A DNA stretch of 64,000 nt. Origin: an uncultured Prevotellaceae bacterium. Lineage in GTDB: Bacteria > Bacteroidota > Bacteroidia > Bacteroidales > Bacteroidaceae. The position numbers and the translations under genes are program-made. Positions 50,805 to 60,962 of the stretch are shown piece by piece. The notes beneath the pieces are model-generated. The model was not told the DNA's origin. It saw only the letters and a list, made by a program, of their open reading frames with translations, and made no database searches. Position 1 is the first letter of the stretch, and every line of letters starts with the position of its first letter. The stretch spans positions 1 to 64,000 of the forward strand of contig ONDH01000003.1 of assembly GCA_900316505.1 (NCBI GenBank). Direction: 5' to 3'.

Positions 50805-51074
50805 ATGGCAACAGCTGCAACCAACAAACTATGGGCATACATCGAAAGCCTTTCGCTTTCTCGCAGAGACCGCAACTGGTTGGCTGGAAAGCTTTTGGAG
50901 CCATCTTTCCAAGCAGACCCTTATGAGGTGAGCCCATCAGGTGACTCTTTTTTTGCAGACAGCCGCAATGTGAAGGCTGTCGAGCGCGATATTGCAGAGG
51001 CTCATCGCCCCAATGCGAAATTCACTCGTCTGGAGAGTAAGGAAGACATTATGGCCATGATTAATGATTTGTAG
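50805..51074 (+). CDS. Antitoxin of a YoeB-type toxin-antitoxin pair
   Basis: The 89-residue product is small and charged, with a helical N-terminus (TNKLWAYIESLSLSRRDRNW) and a disordered-looking middle, as expected for an antitoxin that wraps its toxin. The family is recognised mainly from its place 3 bp before a YoeB-like toxin. It should repress its own promoter, bind the toxin and be degraded faster than it. Confidence 0.75.
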   Translation: MATAATNKLWAYIESLSLSRRDRNWLAGKLLEPSFQADPYEVSPSGDSFFADSRNVKAVERDIAEAHRPNAKFTRLESKEDIMAMINDL

Positions 51075-51077
51075 TTC

Positions 51078-51359
51078 ATGACTTACGTTGTATATCTCTC
51101 AGAACAAGCGAAGAAGGAACTTGCTGTCATCAAACGTAGCGGCGACAAGAAGACTGTCAAGAAAGTGGCTGACTTGCTGCTTGAATTGCAGGAGCATCCG
51201 CGTACAGGTACTGGACAGGTTGAGCATTTGAAGCACTTCGTCTATGAAGAAACATGGTCGAGGCGCATCAACAAGCAGTACCGAATGATTTACGAAATTC
51301 ACGACTTTGAAGTGTATGTCTCTGTTGTCTCACTGCGATCTCATTACGGTGACAAGTAA
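51078..51359 (+). CDS. yoeB: Txe/YoeB-family mRNA interferase toxin
   Basis: The 93-residue product has the YoeB pattern: YVVYLSEQAKKELAVIKRSG, HPRTGTGQVEHLKH, ETWSRRINKQYRMIYEI, and the C-terminal SHYGDK with the catalytic His-Tyr pair. These RelE-fold toxins cut mRNA on the ribosome. The usual His of the KHRLVY segment is Gln-Tyr here (KQYRMIY). It sits at the edge of the accessory island, next to prfA. Confidence 0.9.
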   Translation: MTYVVYLSEQAKKELAVIKRSGDKKTVKKVADLLLELQEHPRTGTGQVEHLKHFVYEETWSRRINKQYRMIYEIHDFEVYVSVVSLRSHYGDK

Positions 51360-54987: not shown

Positions 54988-55049
54988 ATTGCAAGAAGAA
55001 GAAAGTTCTGTCAATGTTTTGTTGGTATTTTGTCAGTTGAAAATCAGCA

Positions 55050-55084
55050 AGAAAAAAGACGTTGACAAAACTTGTCAACGTCTT
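55050..55084 (-). terminator. Terminator of the restriction-modification operon
   Basis: On the minus strand a perfect 13-bp stem (AAGACGTTGACAA and complement) with a 3-base loop is followed by a run of T. It lies 24 bp past the stop at 55109 and separates the operon from the primase promoter. Confidence 0.85.
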
Positions 55085-55108
55085 CCTTCTTTTAATCTTT
55101 ATTTCTTG

Positions 55109-56071
55109 TCAGAGTTTCATCACAGATTGTGTTGAGATGATCTTCTCAATTCTTTCACATTGTTTTTTCGTGAACACACAGGTTGACCCTCCGTAATCCT
55201 TACACTTGGCAATGTAGTCGCGGTGTGGCTTGTCTTCGATGGCATCTCTAATTTTACTCACGTTGTTTTCAATCAGCGTGTCTTTCTTTCCGTCCCTCTC
55301 GATGTGCATATCCTTCATCAAGCCTAAAACGTTGCACACCATTTTCAGATTCTTTCCCCAAGCATTGTTCCGAGGATCCACCTTTTTTAGCAGTTCCATC
55401 ATACCATTTTCCGCACAGATGGCTCGCCAGATGGATTCGTATGTATCCCACTCGATTTTGCACAATGCTCTTACTCCTTTCGTCTGTTCCAGCACATCCT
55501 TCACCATTGCTTCAATCTCTCCACGTGCCACCTCATCCATACGTTCCAAGGAATTCTCCATCTGCATGTAGTCGGTGATAGGAAGAATAATCTTCTTTCC
55601 CTCATTGTCATACCGCTTTCGGGTGAAAGCCTGAATGAGTTTCTCTGGATATTCCTTGTATTGAGGATTGGTGATAATTGTTGCAAGTGCCCTGCACATA
55701 GCCTTGTGAGGATGGTTTTCCGCATCTTCGCCAGCGTCGCACAATTGAGAGAACAGCACCGTCATCACACACAGAGCTGTTGCTGTCGCCTCATCCTCGC
55801 TTCGTTCCGTCCGCTTCTCGCCATTCTGAAAAACGCTGTATCTATCCATCAATTCCTTCATGAAGAAGTGCATCTCCATGTCGCGGTGCTCTGGGACTTC
55901 CGATAACCGCACACGTAATGACTCTGCCTCATTCCAGATTTCCACAGGATTCAAATCGCCCTTCAATTCTAATCGGGTGAGCGTTTCCACCCATGTACGG
56001 AACAAAGCGTCACCGAGATACCGATGACGATAACTGTCCAACTTTTCCTGCGTGAATCTGATGAAAGCCAT
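55109..56071 (-). CDS. Unrecognised protein, fifth gene of the restriction-modification operon
   Basis: The 320-residue product matches no family I know. It is almost wholly helical and charged, with no signal peptide or membrane segment: FIRFTQEKLDSYRHRYLG at the start, a long amphipathic middle (SLERMDEVARGEIEAMVKDV), and a C-terminal segment (HRDYIAKCKDYGGSTCVFTK) with two Cys. It starts 2 bp after the stop of the fourth gene and ends at a strong terminator. A role with the upstream nuclease and methyltransferases is inferred from the spacing alone. Confidence 0.7.
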   Translation of the reverse strand: MAFIRFTQEKLDSYRHRYLGDALFRTWVETLTRLELKGDLNPVEIWNEAESLRVRLSEVPEHRDMEMHFFMKELMDRYSVFQNGEKRTERSEDEATATALCVMTVLFSQLCDAGEDAENHPHKAMCRALATIITNPQYKEYPEKLIQAFTRKRYDNEGKKIILPITDYMQMENSLERMDEVARGEIEAMVKDVLEQTKGVRALCKIEWDTYESIWRAICAENGMMELLKKVDPRNNAWGKNLKMVCNVLGLMKDMHIERDGKKDTLIENNVSKIRDAIEDKPHRDYIAKCKDYGGSTCVFTKKQCERIEKIISTQSVMKL

Positions 56072-56073
56072 AA

Positions 56074-56991
56074 CTACTCGAATACATCTGGCAAATTCTT
56101 CATGAATATTTTCACCTTGTCGTATGGTGTCGTTGCAATGTTCTTCAGCATTGTTTGGTCACCCACCAACTGTTCGAAAACTTTATCGTCCAGTTCTTTC
56201 ACCACATATTGTCCCTTGCCACAAAAGATACGTTTTTCCCCATTTGGATACATAACAATCCATGCACCCGTTCCCGAAGCGCCATCCACCAACACTTCTT
56301 TCCGTTCCTTGTTTTTCTCAAGGTCGAGCGCACCGCCTTCGTCTGCACCAAATGAAAATTCGAGGTCACTGTTCCAATCGTCACGCACTTCTGTCAAGAA
56401 TCCATCCATCACCTTCCTCAACCGTTCAAGATTCAGATGAGGGAAATGGAACGTGATCTTTTTGAATCCTTTGGGATATTCCTTCACAATTCGCCAGAAC
56501 TCATGCTTGGGGTATGGAGCCTCCAGCAGCACCTTCAGGCGGTATCGTTTCAGCAGCACGTTCAGAGTTGCCTCCAGAATGCCCGCCACCGTTTGTGCCC
56601 TCTGAAACACCTTCGTCTTCTTCTCTATCGCAATTCGCTGAATGCCCTTGCGGTTGTCGATAATCACGAGGCAATTCCGATAATCCCTCACAATCTCCTC
56701 CTTCAATTGCTCTGTCGTGATGCTCAGGTTCCGCACATTCGCCACTCGCATCACATACACCTCATCCTGTGGCTCCGCAATCTGCTTGTGCCAATACTCC
56801 CATCCCCGTTTGTTCACAAATTGTATCGTGTTCTGATAGTCACAATGCAATACCTCACTCAGAATCTCCTGCTTCCTCGCAAAAGACTCTTCCACATCCA
56901 CCGCCTCCCAACCAGGGAACTGAATCTGATACTGCTCATCTGGCTCGATGATGCGGGCAAACTGATAGTTGTAGATGACGAAATTAGCCAT
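56074..56991 (-). CDS. Unrecognised protein, fourth gene of the restriction-modification operon
   Basis: The 305-residue product is not recognised. It mixes strands and helices: FVIYNYQFARI at the start, a segment with conserved look (EEIVRDYRNCLVIIDNRKG, about 118-136), a helical middle (AGILEATLNVLLKRYRLKVL), and a beta-rich C-terminal part (GAWIVMYPNGEKRIFCGKG). No catalytic signature is evident. It lies 15 bp after the HNH gene and 2 bp before the fifth gene, so the last two are surely coexpressed. Confidence 0.7.
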   Translation of the reverse strand: MANFVIYNYQFARIIEPDEQYQIQFPGWEAVDVEESFARKQEILSEVLHCDYQNTIQFVNKRGWEYWHKQIAEPQDEVYVMRVANVRNLSITTEQLKEEIVRDYRNCLVIIDNRKGIQRIAIEKKTKVFQRAQTVAGILEATLNVLLKRYRLKVLLEAPYPKHEFWRIVKEYPKGFKKITFHFPHLNLERLRKVMDGFLTEVRDDWNSDLEFSFGADEGGALDLEKNKERKEVLVDGASGTGAWIVMYPNGEKRIFCGKGQYVVKELDDKVFEQLVGDQTMLKNIATTPYDKVKIFMKNLPDVFE

Positions 56992-57006
56992 AGTGAATCA
57001 TTTTAT

Positions 57007-58029
57007 TTACATTCTTCTTATCTGTGCAAAAGTCTGAAAGACATGTTCACGGTGATGATTAAGAAATGCAATGTTGGGCTTAAAGAAATCCACCGTTGGT
57101 ACAAAGATGTGTTTGCCATTAAATTCCTCATAAAAATCCGTTCCTCTCAATTGATTGGCCACTTGTACGTTATAATTTGAATCAATTGTGAAGAAACCCT
57201 TGTCAAACGCAAAATGCATGTCACGGCAAAGAGCTATTCCATTACAGGGAAGGAATTTACCATTGTGTGCCTGTGGTTTGATGTGGGCAGCTTCCAAATT
57301 ACACAAATCACCGTAACGAATAACTTTATGAGTGATTGCACATTTATAATTATATGCAAATAAAACAAATTGACGGAACGTGACGCTATTGAAAAGTTGA
57401 CTGCCCATTTGTTGCTCCAAGATGTTAATACCGTCTTCTTCATGCGCCAAAATGTCTGTGGAGACGGAAGCCAAATATCCTTCAGCGTCATTACTTACAG
57501 CGATAAGGGTCTCATCTCCAATAGACGGCTTTTCGATGAAATTTAACTCTCCCTCATATATGACATTGGAGCAATGAGGTTTACGAGCCTTTTCTTGTAA
57601 ATAATTACTCAAAATATCATACCCTTCTTCACCGTTTCTAATACGTGTAAGGCTATAGATTATTTCTTCTCCGATTTCAAATTTTTCGAAAACAGCTAAA
57701 TCATCTGTTTTAAAAAACAACTCTGGGTCAATTTGTGAATTCATATACAGACGCACCTCATCACGTGGATTGTTTCCCGCATAATCAATAAGAGAGTGCT
57801 TCTGATTGTGGTAGTCAATTGTACAAAGTACTTTCACTGTCTCTTCTTCATATGTTGGAACAATGAAGACAGGTGCCTTGTCATTTAATGCAACAGAGGA
57901 AAGGTGAGGAAAGAAATCAAGACACTCTTTTGATATTAGGAAATAACGTCCACGTTGTGGCTTTCCTGCATTTCTCTCAACGGAGCCCATTTCTTGACTC
58001 CCTACCTTGTGAATGTAATATTGTGCCAT
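57007..58029 (-). CDS. HNH endonuclease, likely the restriction enzyme of the operon
   Basis: The 340-residue product has a C-terminal HNH domain: Cys230 in YKCAITHK, NLEAAHIKPQ with His249, NGIALCRDMHFAFDKGFF with Asn263, His272 and Asp276. The N-terminal 200 residues are unrecognised and could be the DNA-recognition part. It starts 4 bp after the second cytosine methyltransferase, so it should cut the site those enzymes protect. The DNA is more A/T-rich than the housekeeping genes around the island. Confidence 0.82.
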   Translation of the reverse strand: MAQYYIHKVGSQEMGSVERNAGKPQRGRYFLISKECLDFFPHLSSVALNDKAPVFIVPTYEEETVKVLCTIDYHNQKHSLIDYAGNNPRDEVRLYMNSQIDPELFFKTDDLAVFEKFEIGEEIIYSLTRIRNGEEGYDILSNYLQEKARKPHCSNVIYEGELNFIEKPSIGDETLIAVSNDAEGYLASVSTDILAHEEDGINILEQQMGSQLFNSVTFRQFVLFAYNYKCAITHKVIRYGDLCNLEAAHIKPQAHNGKFLPCNGIALCRDMHFAFDKGFFTIDSNYNVQVANQLRGTDFYEEFNGKHIFVPTVDFFKPNIAFLNHHREHVFQTFAQIRRM

Positions 58030-58033
58030 AATA

Positions 58034-59299
58034 TTAAAATTTTAAGAATTTTTCTCGATATTTTGTTGTCACTTTGTATAATCCTTGTGCTATCATTTTC
58101 GCAAATTGTGGAGGGACAGCATTTCCTATCATTTTATACTGATACATCATTGCGCCAAGAAACTCAAAGTCATCGTCAAATGATTGCAAACGAGCCGCTT
58201 CCCGTACTGTTATAGAACGAGCTTGTTGGGGATCAGGATGAATATGGCGCATTCCGTCCTTATACAAATGTGCGGGGATTGTGTTACTTGGCTCATTTTC
58301 CCGAAGAACATAATACTTATGAATGTTGCTCTTTTTTCCCGTCACTTGTGTATACAACTCTTTCAGTTTTTCGATGCTCACATATTCCATGCTACCAGAT
58401 TTAATGTCTTCGGCAAGCATCTCAAAGACCTCAATGTCACGTTTGCTATGGAATCGTGGAACATGATTCAAATATCCCTCAGAAACAATGGGATGATGGG
58501 AAAACTTCTGCCCATTTATCTTTAGAATTTCTTCTGAAGGAAAAATCTTAGGAAGGTCACCGATGGCCTCCTTTACTGTTGTCCTTTTTTTCTTGAAGGA
58601 TGGAATAATATTATGATAGAAGTCTTGAAGGATTTGGCTACAGGTGTCGTCCAATATACCCTCTCCTTGACATCCAAATGTTGCCTCACGGACACCGAGG
58701 ATAATCACTCGACGTCGATGTTGCGGTATGCCAAAATCTGATACGTCAAATACGGCTTCTTTCAAATTTGAGATGATTCTATACCCAGCCTCACTGAATG
58801 CTCTGCGTATAATTCGTGTAATAGGTTCCCCTGTCGGAGCAGCACTTAACAACCCCATCACGTTTTCGAACACGAAGAAATCGGGTTGATAGTGGTTTAC
58901 GACTTTGATGTAACTTTCAAATAGGAAATTGCGATAATCTTCACGCATACCATGCTCATCTCGGATTCTTCCGGCAAGAGAATATGCTTGACATGGAGGA
59001 CCACCAATGATGACATCTACCTTCCTTCCGTTCACTAGAGCATCAAGGCCATCATGACTTCCATATTCTGCATCCATAAAACCATCAAAGAGTTCTTCTG
59101 TTCTCTGAATGTCAAAACGTATAACTTCGTTTGTGGCGTTTTCATGTCCCCATTTTGTTTTTAACCGATGAGCGAGTGTCGTACACATGGGCTTTTCCCA
59201 CTCTACACATCCTAACACACGATAATGCCCCTCTTGAGCAAAACCATCAGTCATGCCACCGCATCCGGCAAACAAATCAATCGTGTTCAATGCCACCAT
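58034..59299 (-). CDS. DNA (cytosine-5) methyltransferase, second of two
   Basis: The 421 residues carry the m5C methyltransferase motifs in order: motif I IDLFAGCGGMTDGF, motif IV GGPPCQAYSLAG with catalytic Cys103, motif VI VFENVMG, motif VIII QHRRRVIILG, a variable target-recognition region (about 215-355), and motifs IX-X (ARLQSFDDDF, IGNAVPPQFAK). It begins 1 bp after the stop of the first methyltransferase. Its target region is unlike that of its neighbour, so it should recognise or act on a different strand or site. Confidence 0.95.
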   Translation of the reverse strand: MVALNTIDLFAGCGGMTDGFAQEGHYRVLGCVEWEKPMCTTLAHRLKTKWGHENATNEVIRFDIQRTEELFDGFMDAEYGSHDGLDALVNGRKVDVIIGGPPCQAYSLAGRIRDEHGMREDYRNFLFESYIKVVNHYQPDFFVFENVMGLLSAAPTGEPITRIIRRAFSEAGYRIISNLKEAVFDVSDFGIPQHRRRVIILGVREATFGCQGEGILDDTCSQILQDFYHNIIPSFKKKRTTVKEAIGDLPKIFPSEEILKINGQKFSHHPIVSEGYLNHVPRFHSKRDIEVFEMLAEDIKSGSMEYVSIEKLKELYTQVTGKKSNIHKYYVLRENEPSNTIPAHLYKDGMRHIHPDPQQARSITVREAARLQSFDDDFEFLGAMMYQYKMIGNAVPPQFAKMIAQGLYKVTTKYREKFLKF

Positions 59300-59300
59300 G

Positions 59301-60365
59301 TTACAGATATTTTTTTAGTTCTAAGGCTATCGCTTTTGACATCAAAGGTGGAACAGCATTTCCAACTTGGCGATTTTGTTGGGTGCGATTTCCAAGAAAG
59401 ACGAAATCATCAGGGAAAGATTGCAAACGTGCGTTTTCTCTCACCGTCGGGCAACGATTCCATTGATAGTGAAAGTGATTTCTGTGTCCTGTGTCGATAG
59501 TGCCAGACGGCTTGTAACTACAATAACGAGTCCATGCCACATGAAAATTGCGACTTTCGCCAACCCCTTTGGGCAAATCTTTATAATTGCCTCCGTCTGG
59601 TACTTGTGCAATGGTCGCTTTGACGAAGTCCTTGTGATTTACGGCAACATGGTTGTATAATACATCATTGTCACCACGCATCATACGTTGATAGTCAGTT
59701 TGAGGCTGATACGAGTATTCTGAAACTTCCGCACCCAATTCATCCACAAGTGAGGGGAGGTCACTTATGGCTTCTTTGCAGGTGACATATTTATCAGCTG
59801 ATAAATATGGGACAGGGAATGTGAATGCTTGCTCGGCATCCCTTATTCCAATGAAAACAAGTCTGTGCCTAATTTGTGGAACACCATAATCGGCAGCACA
59901 AAGAATCTTGCAATTCATTTTGTATCCCATGTCTTTGAAACGTTTTAAGATTTCATCCTTCACCTCTCCTTTATACAGGGTAGCCATACCAGGCACATTC
60001 TCAATCATGAAAGCCTTGGGGCGGTAATGCCTTACGGTTTCAATCATGGCTAAATAGAGTTTGTTACGTTCATCATCAAACTGCCTTCTACCTGTCAAAC
60101 TGAAACCTTGACAAGGAGGGCCACCAATGATGACATCAATCGTCTGGCCATTTATTGCCTTGTCAATTTCTTCATAAGTCTCTTTTTGCGATAAATCTGC
60201 CTTTAATGCAACAGCACCGTGATGATTACGTTCGTATGTACGTAATGCTGCCTCGTCGAAATCCACGCCCAAACGTACATCGTATCCTGCCATCTCGAAA
60301 CCCAGAGACAGCCCTCCGCATCCGCAGAACAAGTCCAACACTGTATGTCGTTTCTTCTTTGCCAT
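59301..60365 (-). CDS. DNA (cytosine-5) methyltransferase, first of two
   Basis: The 354 residues have motif I VLDLFCGCGGLSLGF, motif IV GGPPCQGFSLTGRR with Cys85, motif VI MIENVPG, motif VIII RHRLVFIG, a target-recognition region (about 195-295), and ENARLQSFPDDF and VGNAVPPLMSK at the end. The frame is open to an ATG at 60413, but a TATCTTTG box lies at 60391-60398, so the ATG at 60365 (MAKKKRHTVLDLF) is chosen. It heads a five-gene operon. Confidence 0.95.
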   Translation of the reverse strand: MAKKKRHTVLDLFCGCGGLSLGFEMAGYDVRLGVDFDEAALRTYERNHHGAVALKADLSQKETYEEIDKAINGQTIDVIIGGPPCQGFSLTGRRQFDDERNKLYLAMIETVRHYRPKAFMIENVPGMATLYKGEVKDEILKRFKDMGYKMNCKILCAADYGVPQIRHRLVFIGIRDAEQAFTFPVPYLSADKYVTCKEAISDLPSLVDELGAEVSEYSYQPQTDYQRMMRGDNDVLYNHVAVNHKDFVKATIAQVPDGGNYKDLPKGVGESRNFHVAWTRYCSYKPSGTIDTGHRNHFHYQWNRCPTVRENARLQSFPDDFVFLGNRTQQNRQVGNAVPPLMSKAIALELKKYL

Positions 60366-60390: not shown

Positions 60391-60398
60391 CAAAGATA
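60391..60398 (-). promoter_or_regulatory. -7 box of the restriction-modification operon
   Basis: TATCTTTG on the minus strand, 25 bp before the ATG of the first methyltransferase. It excludes the upstream ATG at 60413. Confidence 0.65.
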
Positions 60399-60461
60399 CA
60401 GCTTTTCCTTCACATCACCAACACCCTCACTGATTTATTTTACAGAAACGGGCTCTGCACT

Positions 60462-60605
60462 TGCTGTTGCAGTGTTGCAGTGTTGCAGTTCCAAAACAGA
60501 TTCTGCGATAGTCAAAATTTAACTCTATATTTATATATAAATATAGAAGTATTTTTAGGGATGGGAAATGCCTCTCGAGAACTGCAACACTGCAACAGTG
60601 CAACA
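60462..60605. mobile_element. MITE-like inverted-repeat element
   Basis: The left arm (60462-60491) is made of GTTGCAGT units and the right arm (60577-60605) is its imperfect inverse (GAACTGCAACACTGCAACAG). Between them lies a perfect 22-bp palindrome (60525-60546) of CTATATTTATA and its complement. No transposase is encoded. The left arm is nearly identical to a segment inside the primase gene. Confidence 0.5.
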
Positions 60606-60610
60606 ATAAG

Positions 60611-60648
60611 TTGACAGTTGACAGTTGAGAGTTGACAGTTACCATGCG
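60611..60648. repeat. TTGACAGTTGACAG repeat next to the MITE-like element
   Basis: Four TTGACAG/TTGAGAG units in a row are followed by TTACCATGCGGAG, the beginning of the composite repeat's hairpin part. Confidence 0.8.
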
Positions 60649-60769: not shown

Positions 60770-60804
60770 CATTGTGATTGAAAATGAGGCGAAGGGACAG
60801 CGAC

Positions 60805-60873
60805 GCAGAGGTAATTACGGCAGCGAGGGAGAGGTAATGACGGGAACGGCGCAGAGGTAATGACGGAAGCGGA
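60805..60873. repeat. Tandem array of three 23-bp units in the DUF5675 leader
   Basis: Units at 60805-60827, 60828-60850 and 60851-60873 share GCAGAGGTAATGACGG followed by a variable AAGCG-like end. Degenerate units appear to flank them on both sides (60782 and 60874). Confidence 0.75.
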
Positions 60874-60962
60874 GGAGAGGAGAGTGAGGATTTGAATGTG
60901 CCTCAATAACTAAATTGGAAAATAAATCGTACATTGTAATTTGTCAAATTGTAAATGAAATT

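Follow-up and report, generated by a model that had tools for sequence, protein, structure and literature searches.

A recurrent two-gene pair beside restriction-modification systems of Bacteroidales, with a first protein predicted to be RexA-like

Rex exclusion is the oldest abortive system to have been described, yet its trigger is unsettled. Five Rex systems have been described, all of which are phage- or prophage-borne, and the proposed view is that RexA responds to phage proteins or to DNA-protein complexes and then activates RexB (PMC12894663). The domains of lambda RexA are hinged, and its crystals captured the closed state; its fold is shared with the recombination-associated DNA-binding protein RdgC as well as with the relatives Iml3 and Chl4, and a biasing effect of RexA on the CI-Cro switch of lambda has also been reported (PMC11077077). 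Analysis of capKS loci has described restriction-modification (R-M) genes located upstream, followed by capKS and then by abortive modules that include DUF4747/CarolAnn, an arrangement for which layered immunity has been proposed with restriction damage as the cue (EMBO J 2026, PMC13373217). When we searched the literature for R-M in combination with RexA-like proteins, a paper on RexAB of P. putida was the sole result. If a Rex-like pair were repeatedly tied to R-M, this would hint at what triggers the sensor, namely DNA that is foreign or has been cut.

Here we describe a five-gene operon (genes A to E) in a 64,000-nucleotide stretch of DNA from an uncultured Prevotellaceae bacterium, hereafter the window. 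We conclude with moderate confidence that its last two genes, D and E, constitute an undescribed and recurrent R-M-associated pair located beside an ordinary R-M system, with the first protein of the pair predicted to be RexA-like.

The operon and its restriction-modification genes

The operon (55109-60365) consists of five open frames on the minus strand that are separated by 1, 4, 15 and 2 bp (Table 1), as an earlier note on this DNA had described. Its reading of a single promoter box and a strong terminator was likewise borne out, with the sequence TATCTTTG present at 60398-60391 and a 20-pair hairpin at 55091-55049 that is the longest within the 6 kb searched. The -7 promoter box of Bacteroidota is TAnnTTTG, and TATCTTTG, which we take to be this box, agrees with it. 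The G+C content is 0.38-0.43 in A-C, 0.46-0.48 in D-E and 0.54 in the downstream gene F, and because of these differences the operon looks pieced together from differing origins. Two repeats lie 5' of the operon: a 33-nt inverted repeat at 60459-60611 (91% complementary, arms 87 nt apart, core CTGTTGCAGTGTTGCAGT) and three tandem copies at 60801-60880 with a spacing of 23 nt.

Table 1. Features of the operon and of the adjoining resident locus, in window coordinates
Feature	Description	Position	Strand	Basis
Promoter	-7 box, Bacteroidota type	60391..60398	-	read from sequence
A	C5-cytosine DNA methyltransferase 1, 354 aa	59301..60365	-	ATG at 60365; PF00145
B	C5-cytosine DNA methyltransferase 2, 421 aa	58034..59299	-	PF00145
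C	HNH restriction endonuclease (putative), 340 aa	57007..58029	-	HNH_2 PF13391
D	predicted RexA/RdgC-type fold, 305 aa	56074..56991	-	AlphaFold2 + Foldseek
E	predicted all-helical partner of D, 320 aa	55109..56071	-	adjacency to D, AlphaFold2
Terminator	intrinsic terminator at operon end, 20-pair stem + T tail	55049..55091	-
G	small conserved gene of resident locus, 127 aa	54377..54760	-
F	primase/helicase-like protein of resident locus, 758 aa	52076..54352	-

Both A and B match the Pfam DNA_methylase family (PF00145; E 3.8e-71 and 1.2e-54, respectively) and the PADLOC model MTase_II (E 1e-119 for each), with intact PCQ and ENV motifs. The C protein matches HNH_2 (PF13391, E 2.7e-8), with the HNH domain located at residues 230-283, and additionally exhibits a match of residues 215-332 to the NCBIfam model PT-DNA_restrict that falls under that model's cut-off and a distant match to the solved HNH endonuclease 6yex. 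The N-terminal 200 residues of C have no assigned domain, a match to the BfiI DNA-binding domain at E 0.17 being no more than a lead. The two PF00145 matches and the HNH_2 match support the proposal of the earlier note that two m5C methyltransferases are accompanied by an HNH protein acting as the restriction enzyme, so that A-B-C plausibly forms a type II R-M system with a separate HNH nuclease. Type II systems with asymmetric sites often need two methyltransferases, one for each strand, and the site recognised here may be of this kind, an idea that the earlier note raised.

Homologues of these genes occur in three other genomes. A is 72% identical to its homologue in L051 and 67% identical to that in L053, B is 62-67% identical to homologues in L051, L052 and L053, and homologues of C follow B in the same three loci at 42-53% identity, with the order A-B-C maintained in L051 and L053. 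D-E is absent beside all three. In its strong form, the inference of the earlier note that D and E are dedicated partners would make them subunits of the R-M system of the window, a proposal with which the tight operon, with gaps of 15 and 2 bp around D, is in keeping. However, not only do A-B-C homologues exist without D-E in these genomes, but D-E also follows unrelated R-M systems, with a pair that is 82-84% identical located behind an EcoRII system in L096. Based on the neighbourhoods of both modules we reject dedicated subunits as highly improbable.

Distribution of D-E and its restriction neighbours

Searches of Pfam, NCBIfam, PADLOC and PHROGs gave nothing significant for D or E, for which the earlier note had also recognised no family; a Pfam search with 17 members of each family also gave nothing significant, and a sequence search among solved structures gave no match for either protein. 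A toxin-antitoxin reading was rejected since neither protein resembles any family of toxins or antitoxins, the only hit being PHD_like at E 0.094 for D, and D and E match no PADLOC model of BREX, DISARM or another named defence system. Within the bacterial family to which the window belongs, 40 of 399 genomes have a homologue of D, as do 6 of 392 genomes sampled across the order, with carriers that include Muribaculum sp. An289, Leyella stercorea, Bacteroides ilei and many Prevotellaceae/Bacteroidaceae MAGs. A search for D in phage and plasmid records found none, as did a search of viral contigs for RexB-like and D patterns. If D-E is a Rex-like pair tied to restriction, Bacteroidales would gain an undescribed defence family with a prevalence of about 10% in the family of the window.

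D and E form a recurrent pair, which supports the suggestion of the earlier note that a second two-gene defence or control module shares the operon. A recognisable E adjoins D in 38 of 44 D loci (a count that includes the near-identical L054 and L093), and an E profile search located 27 places, about 24 of which are beside a D. Among the D loci with no recognisable E, the gene after D in L099, L102 and L113 encodes a protein of 152-153 aa in which hydropathy analysis indicates several hydrophobic stretches. The neighbour of D in L106 is an unrecognised gene of 340 aa in which E-like motifs can be seen by eye, and in L115 D runs directly into type I R-M genes. The remaining E matches include one in L190 (8015-9205), where an E-like gene without D diverges from the operon of a type I R-M system and precedes an F homologue. 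D has a conserved VIIDNR motif; in E it is the N-terminal half that is conserved, with the C-terminal half varying in sequence and length.

Rather than occurring mostly without methyltransferases, an outcome that would have refuted the proposal of the earlier note, D is associated with R-M genes of many types. In an automatic count, an R-M gene is located within 6 kb upstream of D in 22 of 38 loci, versus 1 of 36 for an equal downstream control window. A manual tally found that 35 of 47 informative loci adjoin an R-M, BREX or restriction-type nuclease gene, with the 12 that do not being L042, L047, L049, L054, L100, L101, L102, L103, L106, L114, L116 and L185. Typing of these neighbours with Pfam and locally built profiles revealed a diverse collection of systems (Table 2), and further R-M kinds exist beyond the listed types. 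Since 72 m5C genes are distributed across 20 carrier genomes, adjacency to an m5C gene by chance would be expected in about 1% of windows. Two of the neighbouring systems have features of their own. In L177 (4836-12738) the type I system that follows D-E has several HsdS genes, which face in opposite directions, an arrangement suggestive of specificity switching by inversion. In L097 (11182-12209) a PstI-type nuclease is preceded by an m5C methyltransferase gene that a frameshift or an assembly error has broken into two frames.

Table 2. Types of restriction-associated genes found beside D
Type	Loci
HNH	window, L091
EcoRII	L096
HpaII	L092
SacI	L048
PstI/BsuBI	L097
DpnII	L037
IIG-like	L041, L099, L105, L107, L111
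Type III	L038, L112
Type I	L039, L055, L115, L177
m5C/Eco57I fusion with HNH	L113
GIY-YIG + helicase	L040, L050
BREX PglZ	L109

Short gaps separate D-E from R-M genes in the window, L096, L092, L040 and L182, which suggests that in these loci the two are on one transcript. Such a shared transcript, together with the reported bias of the CI-Cro switch by RexA (PMC11077077), would be in line with D-E being a regulator of the neighbouring R-M system that, for example, holds back restriction after transfer of the cassette to a new host. We regard such a role as quite improbable, as D-E is promoter-distal in the window, is divergent from R-M in L055, L056, L094, L104, L105, L107 and L110, has no HTH family match, and would need to serve unrelated promoters; additionally, the A-B-C module exists without it.

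Analysis of the R-M association is complicated by the resident locus in which many of the pairs are found. Homologues of F are downstream of D in most D loci, and in many loci F is followed by a CHC2/toprim primase, as occurs in integrative elements. Within the genus of the window F is 73-95% identical at the same site, and G has counterparts of 69-95% identity in the corresponding position of L041, L048, L092, L096, L098, L119 and L120. F resembles DUF3987 weakly and by way of a relative, a gene in L043 with the same type of neighbourhood matching DUF3987 at E 0.008 only. The distal edge of the F locus in the window (50805-51359) has a small two-gene unit encoding 89 and 93 aa proteins, the second of which appears RelE-like by eye, that is perhaps a toxin-antitoxin pair. 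D-E could be a passenger or regulator of a mobile or hotspot locus defined by F and G, with R-M as a frequent cargo there. Indeed, F loci of the same genus that lack D-E have R-M in 11 of 23 cases, so the hotspot accounts for part of the R-M association. Comparison of this frequency with the manual tally of 35 of 47 gives a Fisher p of 0.035, a value that is optimistic as the criteria are not fully identical, with the D loci having received extra Pfam scans of their neighbours. When only methyltransferases are considered the frequency is not significantly higher with D-E (31 of 47 versus 11 of 23, p 0.20). However, R-M also adjoins D in 9 of about 13 informative loci that lack F (among them L045, L050, L099, L113, L115, L177, L183 and L188), and distance matrices indicate that D tracks E (rho 0.68) far better than it tracks F (rho 0.35). 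Furthermore, G and F in L092 and L048 are 81-94% identical while their D belongs to a distant subfamily (20-28% identical). Taken together, we consider it unlikely that D-E is only such a passenger or regulator.

The exchange of modules is most apparent at one site of the genus, where a block consisting of an HU-like gene, p169, a variable segment, G, F and H can be compared among loci, with some contigs not reaching both flanks. The variable segment contains HNH R-M and D-E in the window, EcoRII and the close D-E relative noted above in L096, HpaII and a distant D-E in L092, SacI and a distant D-E in L048, and a IIG gene and D-E in L041. In L119 it contains DpnII and a pair unrelated to D-E (415 and 134 aa), and in the single case of L120 it is empty, with neither R-M nor D-E and with G located about 700 bp from p169. 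Because these contents differ at one site, we conclude that R-M and the pair are swapped, either jointly or separately, with L092 and L048, which keep G and F but carry a distant D, indicating independent exchange of D-E. Other gene pairs were observed in comparable positions. The 415/134 aa pair that follows the DpnII-type R-M in L119 (7034-8682), in place of D-E, is possibly another R-M companion pair. A conserved pair of about 340-350 and 391-395 aa is located between R-M and the F locus in L149 (8390-10653) and L152 (8546-10856), where D-E is absent, and L151 has the second gene only of this pair.

Predicted structures of D and E and a proposed role

An AlphaFold2 model of D (pLDDT 89, pTM 0.87) is composed of seven strands, followed by a domain of four strands and helices, and then C-terminal helices, which is the same order of elements as published for RexA (PMC11077077). 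Among solved structures, Foldseek identified lambda RexA (8twq) as the top match to D (E 2.5e-3, probability 0.72, whole-chain TM 0.24), with Iml3 and Chl4 occupying ranks 2, 4 and 6 (including Iml3 4it3 and Chl4 8ow1). The closed, hinged state of the RexA crystal may depress whole-chain superposition with the D model. Three phage proteins with a D-like fold are also present in BFVD (E down to 2e-17, best TM 0.67). At the profile level, a profile of 43 D proteins compared with an actinophage RexA-like family (CarolAnn gp44, Sbash gp30, Sejanus gp46, which are annotated as RexA family, and one Rhodococcus protein) gave an hhalign score of 26.6 against a shuffle maximum of 21.7, with a probability of 3.8%, in a control that is lenient for hhalign as unrelated pairs likewise exceed their shuffles. 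This similarity is weak and extends over about 100 columns, with E 0.011 for one comparison. No hhalign match was obtained between D and lambda RexA, a failure that says little because lambda RexA fails equally against the accepted actinophage RexA-like proteins. The predicted RexA-like fold of D is a tentative assignment, the match being a modest one. The model of E (pLDDT 84, pTM 0.65) is all helical and has no match among solved structures, and E shows neither membrane topology nor a known effector domain. On the Rhodococcus plasmid in L189 (6965-14987), about 1.8 kb separate a RexA-like gene from a cluster in convergent orientation that encodes a GIY-YIG nuclease, a helicase and a DNA methyltransferase.

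The fold that RexA shares with RdgC (PMC11077077) raises the question of whether D-E could be a helper of R-M at the level of DNA, with D as a clamp that covers DNA and prevents cut phage DNA from being repaired by recombination (or shields the host chromosome) and E as its partner. Such a helper would serve any R-M system, since all make breaks, and R-M neighbours of unrelated specificity and type would fit a common step after cleavage. However, RdgC is absent among the structure matches listed for D, and the three loci in which E has given way to a hydrophobic, RexB-like protein speak for an effector more than for a repair factor. We thus view this role as having a real but small chance of being correct.

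The explanation that we favor, which we put forward tentatively and at somewhat less than an even chance, is that the operon combines the A-B-C type II R-M system with D-E as a portable, Rex-like two-gene exclusion module that has a changed second component. In this arrangement R-M would act first against phage. D, presumably a DNA-binding dimer, would sense phage DNA or intermediates of replication, recombination or breakage and would then activate E, as RexA is proposed to do for RexB. E, in place of the membrane protein RexB, would be an effector or transducer that halts the cell or the infection, a role proposed because of its position and its replacement by a RexB-like protein in relatives. 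D-E would consequently act on phage that escape restriction, on modified phage, or on phage that leave cut DNA. More speculatively, and with considerable doubt, such pairs may represent a general second layer of defense in which a RexA-fold DNA sensor with an exchangeable partner (soluble E or a RexB-like membrane protein) is portable across R-M types and triggered by restriction products or escaping phage. The loci described above provide natural experiments for these ideas, with the same pair beside different R-M systems at one site and one R-M module either with or without the pair.

Comparison with described systems

As compared to described type II R-M systems with two methyltransferases and an HNH nuclease, A, B and C belong to the expected families, and it is the extra D-E pair that sets the window operon apart. 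Similarities of D-E to lambda RexA/RexB include being a two-gene unit, the fold predicted for D, which is tentatively RexA-like, the layout of strands and helices in D, and the D relatives in L099, L102 and L113 that precede a small RexB-like hydrophobic protein. In contrast, D has no detectable sequence similarity to lambda RexA, E is helical, apparently soluble and about 300 aa in length whereas RexB is a small four-pass membrane protein, and D-E is in a chromosomal or mobile locus beside R-M and primase-like genes, with no CI repressor beside it.

The Rex-like systems of CarolAnn (gp43-44), Sbash (gp30-31) and Butters (gp30-31), which include DUF4747, are linked to D-E by the weak resemblance that D shows, in profile comparison, to the CarolAnn/Sbash/Sejanus family. 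They differ in that D does not match Pfam DUF4747, that the second component is another one, and that the D-E of the window is not phage-borne. Finally, the loci that combine R-M, capKS and abortive modules (PMC13373217) have R-M genes that precede an abortive module, Rex-like or of another kind, within one locus, as in the window with D-E as the putative module. The difference is that the 15 bp between R-M and D in the window leave no room for capK or capS, and R-M would here lead directly into a Rex-like module without capKS.
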